In this document: positions 9,534 through 19,447 of the stretch, one piece after another
Numbering within the stretch: the stretch's first letter is position 1
Layout: each line of letters begins with the position of its first letter
IMG/VR virus record: IMGVR_UViG_3300045006_000283
Span: 1 to 22,580 of that record
DNA: 22,580 bases
Direction: 5' to 3' (one strand)
Source: a virus
Notes under the pieces: model-generated
Told to the model about the DNA's origin: nothing
What the model saw: the letters and a program-made list of their open reading frames with translations, nothing else
The model's database searches: none
Translations under genes and position numbers: made by a program

Positions 9534-10001
9534 ATGGGTATTATTTATGTGGCGGGTGATCTTTTGACTTCGGATGTTGATGTCTTGGCACATGGAGCAA
9601 ACTGTTTTAATACTATGGGGGCGGGCATCGCAGCACAAATAAAACGATTATATCCGGAAGCCTGGGAAGTAGATTCGCTTACCAAAAAGGGAGATAAGAA
9701 AAAACTTGGTAGTTTTAGCAGAACACAATACCAGAAGCCCGTGATCTATAATTTATATACCCAGTATAGCTTTGGAAAAAATAAAATTTATGTAGATTAC
9801 AAAGCTGTGCGTAAAGCTTTAAAAGCTATGAAAAACGATTTGATAAAAACAGGTTACTATAAAACTTGTAAACTCGGCATGCCCATGATTGGCTGCGGTC
9901 TTGCAGGTGGCGATTGGCAAAAAATAAGTCAGATTTTGGAGGAGATCCTTAACGACAAGGATGTTTTTGTGTATACTCTATCTCAAAAGGAGGCAATATG
10001 A
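9534..10001 (+). CDS. Macrodomain protein (ADP-ribose binding/hydrolase, TARG1/Poa1-like)
   Basis: Macrodomains bind ADP-ribose, and some remove it from proteins or nucleic acids or hydrolyse ADP-ribose-1''-phosphate. The 155-residue length is one bare domain. The ligand loops are visible: HGANCFNTMGAGIA (20-33), then MIGCGLAGGDW (118-128), with VYTL near the C-terminus. The layout resembles human TARG1 (OARD1) and yeast Poa1. From memory of TARG1, its catalytic Lys (in TKKRA) and its Asp after GCGL do not appear here (TQY and GCGLAGG), so activity is uncertain. It opens a new transcription unit. Possible roles are reversing ADP-ribosylation by host defences or handling NAD breakdown products. 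Confidence 0.8.
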   Translation: MGIIYVAGDLLTSDVDVLAHGANCFNTMGAGIAAQIKRLYPEAWEVDSLTKKGDKKKLGSFSRTQYQKPVIYNLYTQYSFGKNKIYVDYKAVRKALKAMKNDLIKTGYYKTCKLGMPMIGCGLAGGDWQKISQILEEILNDKDVFVYTLSQKEAI

Positions 10002-10294
10002 CAGTAGAAAACGTATCTCAGGAAAAGTACCAGAAAGAAACAGGTTTTGATCCAGCAGTAGCAAAAGAGTTCCTTGAACGCTATTTTACCACCGCCCAAG
10101 AAGCGAAAGCTTTACAGCGCGATCTCAAGGATCTTCGAGAGGAATACAAAAATAAGCTGAATATGAAGCTGATCACACGCATTGTTAAGTTGGTAAAAGC
10201 CAAGCTCGATGTAGATAAGTCACAGGCTTCAATAGATACCATTCAAGTGCTCGAAGACCTTGTGCGCGATCAGATAGGGAAAATAGTAGAATGA
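9998..10294 (+). CDS. Small alpha-helical protein, possibly GapR/DUF2312-like
   Basis: A 98-residue, highly charged, all-helical protein starting at an ATGA overlap with the macrodomain gene and behind AAGGAGG (9987-9993). Residues about 20-50 form a long coiled-coil helix (FLERYFTTAQEAKALQRDL, then LREEYK). A basic segment with conserved spacing (MKLITRIVKLVKAKL) and a C-terminal helix follow. This order recalls GapR (DUF2312): a dimerising coiled coil, then a Lys-rich helix gripping overtwisted DNA. The resemblance is only in layout and in the 'K..i..i.kl.Ka' pattern, so treat it as a hypothesis. Otherwise an unknown DNA- or protein-binding helical factor. Confidence 0.55.
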   Translation: MTVENVSQEKYQKETGFDPAVAKEFLERYFTTAQEAKALQRDLKDLREEYKNKLNMKLITRIVKLVKAKLDVDKSQASIDTIQVLEDLVRDQIGKIVE

Positions 10295-10599
10295 TGTTTG
10301 ACATTAGATGTATTCCTAGAAACGGATATCTTGTGGTAGAGCCGTACATTTTTAAGGAAGACATATCGCAGGAAAAAGAAAAACCTCTTTTAGTGCTTCC
10401 TGCCAAGCCCGACACAGAAATATTTAAGACTGCCAGAGTAATAGCAACCGATGGCAGACATCCATCCTCTCAAGCATATTGGGTAGATGACATAATCCTG
10501 GTAGATTCACGGTATTTGCAAACTTGTAGAATAGCAGAAAAAGAATTCTCTTTTATACCAGAAAGTCACTGTCTTGCCAGAATCGTTAAACAAGGCTGA
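10291..10599 (+). CDS. GroES-like co-chaperonin (gp31 type)
   Basis: A 102-residue protein with the shape of a chaperonin-10. It opens with 'IRCIPRNGYLVVEPYIF', close to the GroES 'i.PL.drvlvkp' start. A mobile-loop-sized region follows, ending in LLVLPAKP where GroES has 'givlP'. Then comes TARVIATDG, a WVDDIILVDSR segment matching GroES 'v.vGD.Vlf', and a terminal SHCLARIV like 'dilaiv'. Co-chaperonins cap GroEL. T4 gp31 does this for capsid folding, and a similar role is the best guess. No GroEL gene is seen here, so it would use the host's. The identification is by fold pattern, not strong identity. A second ATG at 10294 is possible. Confidence 0.5.
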   Translation: MMFDIRCIPRNGYLVVEPYIFKEDISQEKEKPLLVLPAKPDTEIFKTARVIATDGRHPSSQAYWVDDIILVDSRYLQTCRIAEKEFSFIPESHCLARIVKQG

Positions 10600-11413
10600 C
10601 GAACAATTAGTCATTCCAGAACGCTGTGAACCGGAGGTTGTGCTGGGGGGTACAGTAGCGGCACTGGCCTTTGCGGTTCGCAGAAATATTCCAGTGCTGT
10701 TTGTACAAGCAAAGACTCCGTTAAGCTTTCACAAATATCGAAAGCGATGGATACGATATGCATGGCTAGCTGCTTATTATGGTTTGTTGTGGGGCGGGGA
10801 ACCAATTACGAATATTTCGGTGCAGGAAACCGATACGGGTGTGCAGATAGACGTTTTTGCCAATAACGTTAAATTGTTCATAATCAGCGCCCATCACGTG
10901 CATATATTCTACGAAGAAGATATCATAGGTCTACCTACACCCATAACAATAAAACAGAAAGAGTACTCTGTATTAGATTGGTTTTATATGGGCACGGGCA
11001 CACGACCAACACATTATGATTATCTGGCAAAGCCAGATGTGCGATTAGCAAAAAGAATATTCTTTTTTCCTTTTCGTCGCCGTTTTCCACACAAAAAGAG
11101 CGCCTCCAACAGAACATCACGCAGATTCCCTTATGCTCATGCCGCAGCATTTTCTGATATAAACGAAGAAGAATTATCTCTAGAATACAGTTCAGAAACG
11201 TATATTAAAATTTTAGTTGAACGTGTTATGAGGAAGCGTCTACATTTAAAGCAATCTATTTGTCACAAAAAGCGCGAAATACTGACAGAGACACGCAATC
11301 AATATCTAGATACACCGCGACTACATTTTAATCATGATTTACTGGCAAAAATTGAAGCCCTCCCTTATCTTGAACCCAAGATGTTGCGCACTGGACAGTT
11401 TTTATTTACATGA
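10574..11413 (+). CDS. Uncharacterised protein with Rossmann-like N-terminus
   Basis: A 279-residue protein I cannot name. The N-terminus 'EVVLGGTVAALAFAVRRNIPVLFVQ' (about 21-45) has the strand, Gly-rich turn, helix, strand order of a nucleotide-binding Rossmann fold. Conserved-looking blocks follow: GLPTPITI, YSVLDWFYMGTG, and a very basic FFPFRRRFPHKK. A C-terminal helical region contains MRKRLHLKQSICHKKREI. I recall similarly laid-out hypothetical proteins in marine T4-like phages. TTG 10574 is the only usual start codon in range and overlaps the GroES-like gene by 26 bases; an ATT at 10613 would also fit. It ends in an ATGA overlap with the next gene, so the two are probably made together. 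Confidence 0.6.
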   Translation: MPESLNKADEQLVIPERCEPEVVLGGTVAALAFAVRRNIPVLFVQAKTPLSFHKYRKRWIRYAWLAAYYGLLWGGEPITNISVQETDTGVQIDVFANNVKLFIISAHHVHIFYEEDIIGLPTPITIKQKEYSVLDWFYMGTGTRPTHYDYLAKPDVRLAKRIFFFPFRRRFPHKKSASNRTSRRFPYAHAAAFSDINEEELSLEYSSETYIKILVERVMRKRLHLKQSICHKKREILTETRNQYLDTPRLHFNHDLLAKIEALPYLEPKMLRTGQFLFT

Positions 11414-12354
11414 CGCCGATTTCAAAAAAAATAAAAGCCTATGTACGTCGTACACAACCAGATTCAGCAGTACACTTGGCGGGTATTATTCCTGTTGCTG
11501 CGCAACCTCTAGAATATTCCTTTCCGTGGCACGATGCTTTAATACCAGTTGCCAACAATCTTTTGGCTGTAGAGTGGGCAGTTCTAGAATGTCTAGCGGT
11601 GGGATGTCAAACCATATGGATTGTTTGTCCTAACGACATGCAACCCCTTATTCGATTTCGTCTGGGAGAATGGTTGAGCGACCTGCGAACCGCTACAAAA
11701 ATGCAACATAGCACCATGGAGATAATAGCGGGCAAAAAAGAACACAGGACTCCTATTTTTTATATTTCTTTAAAGGCTTCTGATCGGCGGAGGCGGCTTT
11801 GTGCAGGTATGAGCATTATACACGGTATGCGCATGGCAACAAGCACACCGGGGCGGCTTAGTCATTGGCTTGAGCCACATAAATTTTATATAGCTTTTCC
11901 TCATGGAATATATTCCTTGGATATTCTTGTGCGATTTCAAAAAGAGATTCAAGGATCCTGCAACCGCACATGTCTGGAATATAATCATCAGACGTGTTTG
12001 CATGATCGACCTTATGGCTTTACGTTGTTTCCTGAAGACATAAAACCGCTAGCATCGTTTTTCAAACTTAGTGATTCTCCGCATGCCCGCTATTCTCGTG
12101 AACAAGATACTTTAAGTAATATATTACAGAAACTCTCATTTAAGAATGATACCGTTATTGAACTTCCATGGGCTTACGATATTCGCACATGGGAAGGCTA
12201 TCGGCAATATTTGGGATCAGAACACGCCTCTTTGATTGTTCGTCCAGATCCAGCATATCTATCTTATCATGAATTTGGGATAGTGGGTGTCCCTCCTGAA
12301 TACTGGCGTTCATATCAGCAAACGCAAAAAAAAGAACTTGAGCAACAAGCATGA
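11410..12354 (+). CDS. Uncharacterised protein, possible nucleotidyltransferase-like fold
   Basis: A 314-residue protein coupled by ATGA to both neighbours. The N-terminus runs 'HLAGIIPVA', 'FPWHDALIPV', 'AVEWAVLECLAVGCQTIWI', then VCPNDM. This order of strand, substrate loop, helix and strand resembles sugar-nucleotidyltransferases of the GT-A/NTP-transferase fold (…kpLlPv…vi..l...g...i.iv). The diagnostic GxGxR of that family is missing. Further blocks are PIFYISLKASDRRRR and KFYIAFPHGIYSLD. The C-terminal 100 residues are hydrophilic. If the fold is right, it might transfer or make a sugar nucleotide. That is inference only. Its tie to the Rossmann-like gene and to dnaE is the main clue. 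Confidence 0.6.
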   Translation: MTPISKKIKAYVRRTQPDSAVHLAGIIPVAAQPLEYSFPWHDALIPVANNLLAVEWAVLECLAVGCQTIWIVCPNDMQPLIRFRLGEWLSDLRTATKMQHSTMEIIAGKKEHRTPIFYISLKASDRRRRLCAGMSIIHGMRMATSTPGRLSHWLEPHKFYIAFPHGIYSLDILVRFQKEIQGSCNRTCLEYNHQTCLHDRPYGFTLFPEDIKPLASFFKLSDSPHARYSREQDTLSNILQKLSFKNDTVIELPWAYDIRTWEGYRQYLGSEHASLIVRPDPAYLSYHEFGIVGVPPEYWRSYQQTQKKELEQQA

Positions 12355-15300
12355 ATCAAAATATTCCTTATGTCAATTTGCATGTACACACCAACATTGG
12401 TTCTATTGGCGATGCTCTGGGAATGCCAGAAGACATTGTACAATATGTTCTTTCGCAAAATGGTTCTGCTGTAGCTTTTACTGATCATGGTAATATGAAT
12501 GCTGTGCCATATATTTTTGCTATACAGCAAGATCTTCTTAAGAAGGAGAAAACATTTAAGTGCATATACGGCATAGAAGCATATTATATTGATAGCTTGC
12601 GCGCTTGGGAAGATCTTTATGATCAGTATCGAGAGAGAGTACAAAAAAAAGAAAAACAACAAGAACAAGATCCGCTAGAAGGCGTGGAAGACATTGGGGA
12701 GCATAAAAAAAGAAAATCTCCAGTTAATCGTCGATCTCACTTGCTCTTGTTGGCACAGAATCTTGAAGGATTACATAATTTATATACGCTCGTTAGCAAA
12801 TCGCATAGTGATAAGTATTTCTATCGTTATCCGCGTATTGATTATGAACTTCTTGCACAACACTCCAAGGGTGTGCTTTGTTCTAGTGCGTGTCTTAATG
12901 GTAGACTAGCAGAATGCTATTTTGAAAATCAAGATAAAGGAGAAGAAGCCGTCGTTCGCTGTATGAAAATCGAGGCTCAGCGATTTCTAGATATTTTTCA
13001 CGATAGGTTCTTTTTTGAGCTTCAATGGAATGCCTTTTCTGAGCAGCACGCTATTAATAGATGCCTGATTCGAACTGCAATAGAGTTAGGATGTCAAGAG
13101 CAGCTTATTTCATCATCTGATGCACATTATCCCAGACCTGATTTATGGCTCAGCAGAGAAATGTACAAACGTCTTTCACGAATATCTAATAAAAAAGAAA
13201 GCGCCAAGCCTCTTCCTTTAACACCGCAAGAAGTTGGCTTTGAAGCTTATCCCCGTTCGGGTCAACAAATGTGGGAAGCATATAAATATTATGCAGCAGG
13301 TGGCATCTATGATGACAAGATAGTGCTCAGCAGTCTGTTTAAAACGTACGATATTGCTCAAAATATGATAGAAGACTTCAAACTGGAAACCGATATTCGT
13401 TTTCCTGATTTTATCGTACCTCCTGGTTATACTGATAATGAAAGATTGGCAGAACTAGCTCATCAGGGACTTTTACTTAGGCATCACGATACCAAACAAG
13501 ACTATCTTACGAGGCTAGCTTATGAACTGGAAGTTGTAAAAAAGCGCAAATTCGCAAAATATTTTCTGCTGGTACATGAAATTGTCGAAAAAGCTAAAAC
13601 ATTAGGCTTGACTGGTCCTGCACGCGGATCTGCTAGTGGTAGTCTTCTTTCTTATCTCTTGGGCATTACACAAGTAGATCCGGTACGCTTTAACTTACAT
13701 TTTGAGCGCTTTATGGATCCGGAAAGTGAAAGCTTTCCAGATATTGATTGGGATGTACAGGCTCCAATGGAGCTTAAAGAACTTCTTGCAAAGGAGTGGA
13801 AAAAACAGCATAACGTTGATGTAGTGCCTATTAGTAACTTTTCTACCTTACAGTTACGCAGCCTGATTAAGGATATTGCTAAATTCTATGATATCCCGTT
13901 TATAGAAGTCAATGCTGTTACTGGCGTCATGATGCAAGAAGCAACGCCGTTGGCAAAAGAGCAGCACGGCATTAAAGCAGGCGTCTATGTGCCGACTTTC
14001 GATGAAGTATTAGAGTTCAGCGTCTCGCTTCAGAAATTTCTTAAGAAATATCCTAAAGTGGCTGAGCATATTGCAGCATTAAAAGGAGCAATACGAGGTA
14101 CTTCCCGACATGCAGCAGGGATTTTGGTAGAAGAGAATCTTGAAGCTCGTATGCCGCTGATTCGCAGCGGAGGCGTTATACAAACACCTTGGGCAGAAGG
14201 ACAGAAAATAAGAAATCTAGAGCCCATGGGCTTCCTTAAGATGGATGCGCTAGGACTCACCACCTTAAGTATTATTCACAATACCATTAAACGCATATTG
14301 CAGAATCACTACAATAATTCTAATCCATCGCTGGATGATGTATGGAATTATTATAATGAATATTTACATCCAGACACTCTTGATCTTGATGATCAAGAAG
14401 TCTATCAGCACGTATATCACAAAGGACATTTTGCAGGGATCTTTCAGGCGTCGGAAAAAGGCATGCAAGCACTCATAAAAGCTGCCAAACCTACCAATAT
14501 CAATGAACTATCTACGCTAAACGCTATCTATCGTCCAGGCCCGTTAGGTGCTGGCGTAGATGCTAAATACCTTGCTATACGCAATGGAGAGCTTCACATT
14601 GATCATCCTCACCCTCTGGTGACGAAGGTTCTTGCAAGAACTGCTGGTGTGTGTTGTTACGATGAACAAATCGCAGAACTAGCTCACGTATTAGGCAAAG
14701 ATCTCTCACTGGCAGAAGGCAACAGGTTGCGCAAGCTTTTGATAAAGAAAGGCTTGCGCAACGTAGAACAAAAAAAGGCTGCTCTTAAGCGAAAATTTGT
14801 TGCAGGTTGTCAAGAAAAAGACTTATCCGATCAGACAATTAATCAGCTATGGGAAGAGTTTGAACTACACACTAAATATTCTTTTTGTTATAATCACTGC
14901 CTCAGCTACAGCTTAATATCTTATCAGTGTGCATGGCTTCTTACGCATTATAGTGCCGAATGGGCGTGCGCTGTGCTTGATAATGCTTCAGAAGAGACTA
15001 AGGAATCGGATATTAGTGCTGTTCGTGCTCTTGGGTTTACAATAGAGGGTCTAGATATTAATCATTCTGGTACTTTGTGGAATATTTCTAAAGACAGCAA
15101 GAGCCTAATTCCGCCGCTGACGTTAATTAAAGGGCTAGGAGAGAAAGCTGTAGAACAAATTATGCAGCATCGTCCTTTTAAGACCCTAGAAGAACTTCTT
15201 TTCAACGAAAAGATTGCATATGCTAAGCTTAATAAAAAAGCTCTAGATGTTCTTTTGCGTAGCCAGGCTCTTAATTCGCTTATAGATGATCGCTTTTCTG

Positions 15301-15767
15301 GATTGCGTCACGCATATTCAGCAATCGTTGTAGATCGGGCACGGATCATTAAAGACTTTCAGGCTAACATTGAACGTTATAGACCGGAAGGAGATTTCTC
15401 GGAAGCGGAGAAAGTTGATTATCTTGTGTCCTTAACAGGCATCTTTCCTTTTCATATAATATTACCAGAGCAAATGCTGAAAGCTCTTGTAAAGCACAAA
15501 ATTCCTCCTATAAGTGCCTGGGATGACGCTATTGGCATGGCTTATTTTGTTCCTAGAGAAGTATTGATCAAGCAAACCAAAAATGGAAGAACTTATTGGG
15601 TAGTAATTACTACTGATCCGTCAGGCGCTCAGCAGCGAGTCAAAGTTTGGAGTATTCATTCAGGAGACAAGCTTTATCTTAATCGGGTTTATGCTGCTAA
15701 ACTAAATTATGATTCAAAATGGGGATTAAGCTGTCCTGGAGTTTATTGCTTGAAATTACTGGGATAA
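12351..15767 (+). CDS. dnaE: DNA polymerase III alpha subunit (C family, DnaE) with PHP domain
   Basis: Replicative DNA polymerase of 1138 residues, close to the 1160 of E. coli DnaE. The N-terminal PHP domain seems to keep its whole metal site: H11 and H13 (LHVHT), D45 and H46 (TDHG), E76 (GIEAYY), H130, C181 and D257/H259 (SSDAHY). That suggests it can still act as a proofreading exonuclease. A charged insert of about 40 residues lies between E76 and H130. The palm has GPARGSASGS (422-431) and the catalytic PDIDWD (463-468), with a third Asp in KMDALGL (D632). HAAG at 587 and YRPGPL are also family signatures. An OB-like region ends the protein. ATG 12351 overlaps the previous stop (ATGA). 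Confidence 0.93.
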   Translation: MNQNIPYVNLHVHTNIGSIGDALGMPEDIVQYVLSQNGSAVAFTDHGNMNAVPYIFAIQQDLLKKEKTFKCIYGIEAYYIDSLRAWEDLYDQYRERVQKKEKQQEQDPLEGVEDIGEHKKRKSPVNRRSHLLLLAQNLEGLHNLYTLVSKSHSDKYFYRYPRIDYELLAQHSKGVLCSSACLNGRLAECYFENQDKGEEAVVRCMKIEAQRFLDIFHDRFFFELQWNAFSEQHAINRCLIRTAIELGCQEQLISSSDAHYPRPDLWLSREMYKRLSRISNKKESAKPLPLTPQEVGFEAYPRSGQQMWEAYKYYAAGGIYDDKIVLSSLFKTYDIAQNMIEDFKLETDIRFPDFIVPPGYTDNERLAELAHQGLLLRHHDTKQDYLTRLAYELEVVKKRKFAKYFLLVHEIVEKAKTLGLTGPARGSASGSLLSYLLGITQVDPVRFNLHFERFMDPESESFPDIDWDVQAPMELKELLAKEWKKQHNVDVVPISNFSTLQLRSLIKDIAKFYDIPFIEVNAVTGVMMQEATPLAKEQHGIKAGVYVPTFDEVLEFSVSLQKFLKKYPKVAEHIAALKGAIRGTSRHAAGILVEENLEARMPLIRSGGVIQTPWAEGQKIRNLEPMGFLKMDALGLTTLSIIHNTIKRILQNHYNNSNPSLDDVWNYYNEYLHPDTLDLDDQEVYQHVYHKGHFAGIFQASEKGMQALIKAAKPTNINELSTLNAIYRPGPLGAGVDAKYLAIRNGELHIDHPHPLVTKVLARTAGVCCYDEQIAELAHVLGKDLSLAEGNRLRKLLIKKGLRNVEQKKAALKRKFVAGCQEKDLSDQTINQLWEEFELHTKYSFCYNHCLSYSLISYQCAWLLTHYSAEWACAVLDNASEETKESDISAVRALGFTIEGLDINHSGTLWNISKDSKSLIPPLTLIKGLGEKAVEQIMQHRPFKTLEELLFNEKIAYAKLNKKALDVLLRSQALNSLIDDRFSGLRHAYSAIVVDRARIIKDFQANIERYRPEGDFSEAEKVDYLVSLTGIFPFHIILPEQMLKALVKHKIPPISAWDDAIGMAYFVPREVLIKQTKNGRTYWVVITTDPSGAQQRVKVWSIHSGDKLYLNRVYAAKLNYDSKWGLSCPGVYCLKLLG

Positions 15768-18166: not shown

Positions 18167-18411
18167 AAAAATGGCGTCTTAAGACATCTGATATTCAAGA
18201 AATTATAGCCAAAAAAACCTCCTTGCTCTTGGCTACTCCGTCTGCTTGTTTTGTCTGCGGCGCAGTATTTGATAAAAAAGATAAAGAAGCCACACAGACA
18301 TGGCGCATTGTGGCAGATAGTGCCGCTGGACTTATTCGTCTTTATTGTCCTACGTGTTGGCAAACAGCCGAAACTTGGTTAGAAAGCGCAAAAGAGAGTG
18401 TTCAACGTTGA
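18163..18411 (+). CDS. Small zinc-ribbon protein
   Basis: An 82-residue protein with two CxxC knuckles, CFVC at 29-32 and CPTC at 62-65, set thirty residues apart as in a zinc ribbon. The region between them is strand-prone (TWRIVADSAAGLIRLY). The helical ends are basic at the N-terminus (KKWRLK) and mixed at the C-terminus. Zinc ribbons often touch nucleic acids or RNA polymerase, but no specific role can be claimed. It begins in an ATGA overlap with dut and slightly overlaps the next gene. Confidence 0.6.
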   Translation: MKKWRLKTSDIQEIIAKKTSLLLATPSACFVCGAVFDKKDKEATQTWRIVADSAAGLIRLYCPTCWQTAETWLESAKESVQR

Positions 18412-19447
18412 AATGCCTGCACCAGTTCCTCGACCGAGATCTGTGCTTGAGAATCCAAATATTATAGAACATAGCTATTCCTATGATAATATTCAGATCA
18501 TACCAAAATATAGTGATATTGCCAGCAGATCGGATGTGTGTTTACAGACCACGTTGGATGAGAAGCGCAAGATCGTGCTTGACTTACCTATTGTTGCTGC
18601 GCCAATGGATACAATCTGTGATAGCAAAATGGCAATTGCTTTAGGCAAACATGGAGCATTGGGCATTATTCATAGATTTATGAGCATCGAAGAACAGGTA
18701 AAGGAAGCTCAGAAGGCAGAAAATGAAATTCCGTGGGTTGCTGTTGCAATTGGGGCAAAGCCGGAAGAAAAAGAGCGCTTGACTCAGCTAATGAAACGTG
18801 CTAACGTTTCTATTGTGGTAATAGATATTGCACACGGGCACTGTCGAATGTTAAACGAAATGGTGATTTGGCTCCGTCTTAATTTTCCAAAACTGCATAT
18901 TATGGGCGGGTCTATCGCTACCGGCGAAGCAGCAAGAGCCCTAGAGCAATGGGGAGTGCATAGTTTGCGTGTTGGTATAGCTAACGGATCTATGTGTTCT
19001 ACTAAATATCAGACAGGCATCGGAGTACCGCAAGCTACCGCTGTCTATGCCTGTGCGATGGCTGTTAGGGATACGCCAATTATTGCAGATGGCGGCATAA
19101 GGACTTCGGGAGATATGGCAAAAGCACTGGCGCTGGGAGCTTCTGCGGTAATGATAGGATCTGTACTAGCAGGAACAGCAGAGACGCCGGGAGCTATTTG
19201 CTATCGTAATACAGGCAAGATGTTTGCTGAACGATATAAAGAATATCGCGGATCGGCTTCTTGGGAAGCAAAAATAGCACGCGGAGAATCTAGACACGTA
19301 GAAGGAGTTTCCTGTACGGTGCCATATCGAGGCTCAGTAGATTCCATAATCCACGATATTGCCGATGGACTTAAAAGCGCCTTTTCATACGTTGGAGCAA
19401 AAAATCTTACAGAGTTTCAGCAACAAACAACTTTCATAAAGGTTTAG
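18398..19447 (+). CDS. IMP dehydrogenase / GMP reductase family enzyme (no CBS domains)
   Basis: TIM-barrel oxidoreductase of purine nucleotide metabolism: IMP to XMP (GuaB) or GMP to IMP (GuaC). From GTG 18398 it has 349 residues; ATG 18413, two bases after the previous stop, is a good alternative start. Seen are VAAPMDT (67-72), DIAHGHC (143-149), the catalytic loop [14 protein letters not shown] with C200, [12 protein letters not shown] (229-240) and YKEYRG. DxAHGH is typical of IMPDH. However, the CBS-less length, the SRSDV near the N-terminus and the C-terminal YVGAKNL...TTFIKV resemble GMP reductase. The family is clear; the direction is not. It lies between nucleotide-pool genes and two small regulators. 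Confidence 0.8.

Follow-up and report, generated by a model that had tools for sequence, protein, structure and literature searches.

Two adjacent genes, designated here gp1 and gp2, lie directly ahead of the gene for a family C DNA polymerase (dnaE) in the 22,580-nucleotide stretch of viral DNA that was analysed (IMG/VR record IMGVR_UViG_3300045006_000283, positions 1 to 22,580; below, the window). Judged from sequence comparison, the two form a core module shared by a large group of DnaE-encoding, uncultured phages, and the pair appears to belong to no named protein family. Our favoured, still tentative, reading is that the gp1 and gp2 proteins are obligate partners, most likely forming one heteromeric complex that would bind a nucleotide or nucleotide-sugar at active sites that have been rewritten. 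Hundreds of uncultured phages retain the pair as faithfully as they retain the polymerase, it goes unnamed in the protein libraries searched and it is small enough for direct expression and testing.

The features of the pair are collected in Table 1. A preliminary description of this DNA had reported two proteins of 279 and 314 residues at 10574–12354, sharing an ATGA junction and lying between a GroES-like gene and dnaE. The coordinates and lengths are exact and the junction is where it was said to be; a second ATGA, between gp2 and dnaE, was absent from that description. Because four-base overlaps of this type are common in the window (8 of its 32 gene junctions), the ATGA junction by itself says little about coupling. 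Profiles of the two families made with the window left out pick exactly these two from its 245 ORFs (gp1 at E 1.8e-25, gp2 at E 1.9e-80); on this comparative evidence both are genuine conserved genes and not chance ORFs.

Table 1 Features of the gp1–gp2 locus (positions in the window)
Feature	Positions	Strand	Remarks
Cpn10/GroES-like gene upstream of gp1	10291..10599	+	Position kept in relatives
gp1, 279 aa, GR2-type flavoprotein-fold family (predicted)	10574..11413	+	TTG start; 26-base overlap with upstream gene
beta1-turn-alpha VLGGTVAAL, gp1 residues 23–31	10640..10666	+	FAD-binding GxGxxG site of the parent fold
Point in window gp1 lacking the family's conserved GIxGxxNG loop	11234..11236	+	
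gp1 stop/gp2 start overlap, four-base ATGA	11410..11413	+	
gp2, 314 aa, GT-A nucleotidyltransferase-fold family (predicted)	11410..12354	+	
HLAGIIPVAAQPLEYSFPWHDALIP, gp2 residues 22–46	11473..11547	+	Site of the nucleotidyltransferase GxGxR and catalytic Lys; W40, D42 and P46 near-invariant
DxxxRDCxxW family motif (DRRRRLCAGM in the window), gp2 residues 125–134	11782..11811	+	Site of the nucleotidyltransferase base-binding loop
AFPHGIY, post-beta4 loop, gp2 residues 162–168	11893..11913	+	Site of the nucleotidyltransferase metal-binding Asp; no conserved acid in family
gp2 stop/dnaE start overlap, four-base ATGA	12351..12354	+	
dnaE (family C DNA polymerase)	12351..15767	+	Next in the kept order gp1–gp2–dnaE

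The neighbours were also as described. The window's own gene upstream of gp1 has no match in a direct family search, and its direct comparison with the counterpart in contig L273 is weak (E 0.018); the genes found at the same place in two contigs match Cpn10, with E 3.9e-5 for L050 and 4e-4 for L273. Immediately before it, a small gene (9998–10294) has a sub-threshold match to the GapR DNA-binding domain (E 0.043), and at that place L050 and L273 carry genes of similar size that are alike to one another. The surrounding nucleotide-metabolism block of the window includes a macro-domain gene (9534–10001) and an IMPDH/GMP reductase-like gene (18398–19447), the latter being present in most relatives.

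Single-sequence scans of IMG/VR with gp1 or gp2 recovered no relatives. The bridge to the first of them, contig L001, was the neighbouring DnaE: the genes upstream of L001 dnaE proved to be diverged versions of gp1 (23% identity) and gp2 (27%). A two-sequence gp2 alignment (window plus L001) then retrieved 367 relatives and wider gp2 alignments at least 560 in IMG/VR, whilst 377 relatives of gp1 were found with a 12-row subset of its alignment, the profile of all 85 rows being too variable. In L001 itself, the overlap of gp1 and gp2 exceeds 100 bases (1561–1684) and no ATG, GTG or TTG stands ahead of the conserved HLAG start of gp2; either the start codon is unusual or the contig contains a frameshift.

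The pair is also present in two bacterial genome bins, apparently as phage sequence. Record CP070664.1, labelled as the chromosome of a WOR-3 bacterium, carries the pair and dnaE right at its beginning (contig L084, 1244–3048); this locus is either a provirus or a chimeric assembly. Among cultured phages, tblastn with the window and typical relatives as queries gave no match to gp1 or gp2, and searches against sequence profiles from Pfam, PHROGs, NCBIfam and the PDB gave neither protein a match that was both significant and consistent. Literature searches turned up no account of the pair, and no gene fusions involving gp1, gp2 or dnaE were found.

The two genes are nearly always kept together. 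At 163 gp2 loci, gp1 lies upstream in 159 and dnaE downstream in 156, always on the same strand, the remainder being cut by contig ends. When loci from independent gp1, gp2 and dnaE scans were merged, 217 groups resulted, three of which are cultured DnaE phages serving as outgroups, and gp1, gp2 and dnaE occur together in 169 of the 214 distinct metagenomic contig groups (an approximate grouping, since L030 and L247, for instance, share one record). With the sole exception of L273, every other metagenomic group ends before the expected place of the missing gene. Each of 19 large records (114–206 kb) encodes exactly one gp1 and one gp2, and neither gene is frequent alone.

L273 extends 9 kb upstream of dnaE, with gp32, RecA, exonuclease, helicase, RNR and Cpn10-like genes in the same order as in the window, and has neither gp1 nor gp2. 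The DnaE of L273 shares 71% identity with that of L050, which carries the pair, and in a tree it falls, with modest support, among contigs that have the pair. Both genes would therefore seem to have been lost, or relocated, jointly. Between its Cpn10-like gene and dnaE, this locus (L273, 7560–9000), the only long one in the group to lack the pair, has a transglycosylase SLT gene instead.

Covariation points the same way. The gp1–gp2 distance correlation is r 0.81 across the 104 contigs that carry all of the genes compared, and a partial r of 0.69 persists given dnaE and helicase, a value as high being seen in 0 of 500 permutations; the partial r of gp2 with dnaE is 0.17, as against 0.67 for dnaE with helicase. 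In a dereplicated set of 58 contigs the gp1–gp2 partial is again 0.69 (subsamples 0.60–0.74). The covariation persists at all distance cut-offs and is 0.63 where the two genes lie at least 150 bases apart (n=16); where gp2 touches dnaE, the value for those two genes is 0.18. In the 14 large genomes alone, the gp1–gp2 and gp2–dnaE partials are alike (0.40 and 0.42). Overall, gp1 and gp2 would appear to form one evolutionary unit, distinct from the adjoining replisome genes, and the proposal in the preliminary description that the two proteins act together gains support from both co-occurrence and covariation. The covariation may, instead of contact, reflect joint horizontal transfer.

Proximity to dnaE raises the question of whether gp1 and gp2 serve the phage polymerase as accessory subunits. 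The order gp1–gp2–dnaE on one strand at every intact locus but one speaks for this, as does the failure to find the pair in cultured DnaE phages, whose DnaE is distant. Nevertheless, in the sets of 104 and 58 contigs partial correlations of gp1 and gp2 with dnaE are only about 0.1 to 0.2, compared with 0.51 to 0.67 for dnaE and helicase, L273 has a DnaE closely similar to that of a pair-bearing relative without having either gene, and the folds of gp1 and gp2 differ from those of known polymerase accessories. We regard such a role as highly improbable.

The structure of the window gp2 was predicted with AlphaFold2 (pLDDT 87, pTM 0.86). Compared with solved structures, the model finds nucleotidyltransferases as its best matches (Foldseek probability 1.00, E 5.5e-8), superimposing on a glucose-1-phosphate thymidylyltransferase of the RmlA type over 208 residues at 2.6 Å (Z 19.7). 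The predicted fold is thus the GT-A nucleotidyltransferase fold, as had been guessed earlier, and is of the RmlA/IspD/GalU type, with likeness to these enzymes extending across the whole fold and the order of its elements (Z 17–20 over 190–230 residues). At sequence level the resemblance is slight: Pfam gives no match for the gp2 of the window or of L001, the best NCBIfam match (E 5.5e-4) is to an unrelated family and was seen in 1 of 18 cases, and hhalign of gp2 against genuine nucleotidyltransferases from two bacterial genome bins gives a probability of 8% only.

The roles of the GxGxR, catalytic Lys and metal-binding Asp motifs of nucleotidyltransferases, and of the GxGxxG motif of flavoproteins, are well established in the parent enzymes. 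Unlike RmlA, GalU and IspD, the gp2 family has none of the first three. The preliminary description had noted that GxGxR is missing, which is true of the window gp2 and of the whole family: the phosphate-binding loop after beta1 reads VAGQPLDF, with Arg uncommon in its columns. The region of the catalytic Lys (the PK motif) reads WHD, and the loop after beta4 (158–161), where the metal-binding Asp would lie, reads AFPYGVY and has no conserved acid. Motif positions in both families were assigned from the order of secondary-structure elements, a low-probability profile alignment with genuine nucleotidyltransferases also being drawn on for the N-terminal part of gp2. Other residues in these loops are near-invariant: W40 (65 of 65 sequences), D42 (64/65), D125 (65/65), D130 (64/65) and P164 (63/65), and likewise R129 and W134.

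For gp1, the fold was taken from the most typical relative (L137, 9069–9971), in which the structure prediction is of high quality (pLDDT 96, pTM 0.91); the window gp1, at ~22% identity, is placed by homology only. The L137 model matches GR2-type flavoproteins (Foldseek E 6.4e-8), with UDP-galactopyranose mutase at Z 13.5 over 261 residues and PA4991 and renalase within Z 13.0–13.5 (renalase 13.0). The gp1 family is accordingly predicted to adopt the GR2-type FAD flavoprotein fold seen in UDP-galactopyranose mutase, renalase and p-hydroxybenzoate hydroxylase, although gp1 is smaller than most members of that class. The Rossmann-like fold suggested earlier for gp1 is in keeping with this prediction, and the nucleotide-binding-like Gly turn remarked upon (VLGGTVAAL) does fall at the beta1-turn-alpha of the family; both predicted folds are of nucleotide-binding type.

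Here too the textbook motifs are missing. Unlike GR2 flavoproteins, the gp1 family keeps only the first Gly of GxGxxG (85 of 85 sequences), the third being Gly in 18/85 and the sixth Ala in 74/85, and it has no ribose-binding acid at the end of beta2, columns 33–34 holding mostly Asn, Val, Thr and Lys, Glu, Ser. By eye, no Gly-Asp pair corresponding to the GD motif looks conserved in the strand and loop at the C terminus. Residues D151, W152, H161, Y179, R183, K191, D192, S197 and R254 (L137 numbering) are near-invariant. We set the pair outside the NTP_transferase and GR2 flavoenzyme families because the features that define these families were tested for and not found, and neither protein matches their profiles.

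That the classical motifs have gone from both families, whilst residues in the same or adjoining loops are near-invariant, looks like the rewriting of sites rather than decay. The absent motifs argue against classical chemistry but are no proof that there is none. Subunits with a nucleotidyltransferase fold that act as scaffolds or regulators without catalysis are known, eIF2B and GMPPA being examples, and gp1 and gp2 might similarly be non-catalytic relatives of enzymes with a scaffolding or regulatory role, for example in the control of host nucleotide or sugar metabolism. Loss of both sets of classical motifs with retention of both folds would fit this idea. It sits poorly with the pattern of conservation in gp2, which is strongest in the acidic, Arg, His and Trp residues of the pocket loops and so suggests that a ligand or a reaction is involved, not a surface alone. 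We consider a purely non-catalytic role improbable.

The reading that we tentatively favour, of a heteromeric complex with rewritten sites, can be put in more specific terms. The remodelled gp2 pocket, with its WHD, DxxxRDC and FPYG motifs, would still bind a nucleotide or nucleotide-linked ligand, and the conserved Asp-Trp, His, FYPSxR, KD and Arg residues of gp1 would provide a second face that works without FAD. Both proteins might then jointly handle the gp2 ligand in phage DNA or nucleotide metabolism, gp2 acting as no ordinary metal-dependent nucleotidyltransferase and gp1 as no ordinary FAD oxidoreductase.

Some phages have nucleotidyltransferases that supply DNA glycosylation. RB69 ORF053_052c has a proposed role in UDP-arabinose supply (PMC6024577), and Thanatos TH1_063 is a UDP-xylose pyrophosphorylase in vitro (PMC12838424). 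Like these, gp2 has a nucleotidyltransferase-like fold in a large phage, and RB69ORF053c appears at rank 38 in a viral structure search with gp2. Unlike them, gp2 is not beside glycosyltransferases and its partner is a protein of flavoprotein fold; tblastn gave no match to gp2 among cultured phages.

A comparable role for gp1 and gp2, as an active enzyme system with a remodelled catalytic centre that yields either an activated sugar or modified bases in phage DNA, is a possible if doubtful alternative. It draws on the gp2 fold, on UDP-galactopyranose mutase being the closest fold to its partner and on the presence of Glycos_transf_1 genes in 17 of the 19 large relatives, though a canonical NTP_transferase is found in only 1 of the 19. 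In its ordinary form, the two-step sugar-nucleotide or DNA-modification enzyme envisaged in the preliminary description fares badly: neither nucleotidyltransferase nor flavoprotein catalytic motifs are conserved in the two families, and no homologue of the canonical thymidylate synthase family was found in the 19 large relatives. Moreover, the glycosyltransferases lie at a distance from the pair, in a glycan-synthesis island whose content varies between phages, and the two conserved ones show no covariation with gp1 or gp2 (partial correlations −0.11 to 0.14, n=14). In L398, L399 and L400, this island has two conserved tandem GT-B glycosyltransferases beside a PhoH-like and a PD-(D/E)XK-like gene and after these, inspected by eye, varies in its content of fucosyltransferase, sulfotransferase, sugar dehydratase, aminotransferase, sialic acid synthase and CMP-sugar synthetase-like genes. 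A search for the T4 clamp family gave no match, but with its controls also silent this result carries no weight.

A bolder possibility, which we think rather unlikely, is that the flavoprotein-fold and nucleotidyltransferase-fold proteins together make up an enzyme whose rewritten sites carry out a new nucleotide or DNA reaction, base modification for example, as a core phage function. With their textbook motifs gone and their pockets kept, yet changed in step, these two old folds are a promising setting in which to seek new nucleotide or DNA chemistry.

The window carries a diverged version of the pair. Its gp2 keeps 43 of 62 conserved positions, compared with an average of 97% (minimum 79%) in other members, D130 and W134 being among the losses. 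In its gp1, 11 of 19 remain, and the family's K, D and H are missing along with the GIxGxxNG loop. Identity to relatives is 35% for gp2 (52% amongst the relatives themselves) and 22% for gp1 (36%), making gp1, by these counts, the most altered part of the window's version. The window DnaE is 48% identical to relatives that share 69% with one another; divergence of DnaE in proportion to that of gp1 and gp2 suggests that the window represents a deep or fast-evolving branch. Within this DnaE, the stretches GFNKSHA and LIFQEQ, identical or nearly so in nine relatives, read SFCYNHC and CCYDEQ, and the acidic residues of PDxD and D632 are retained.
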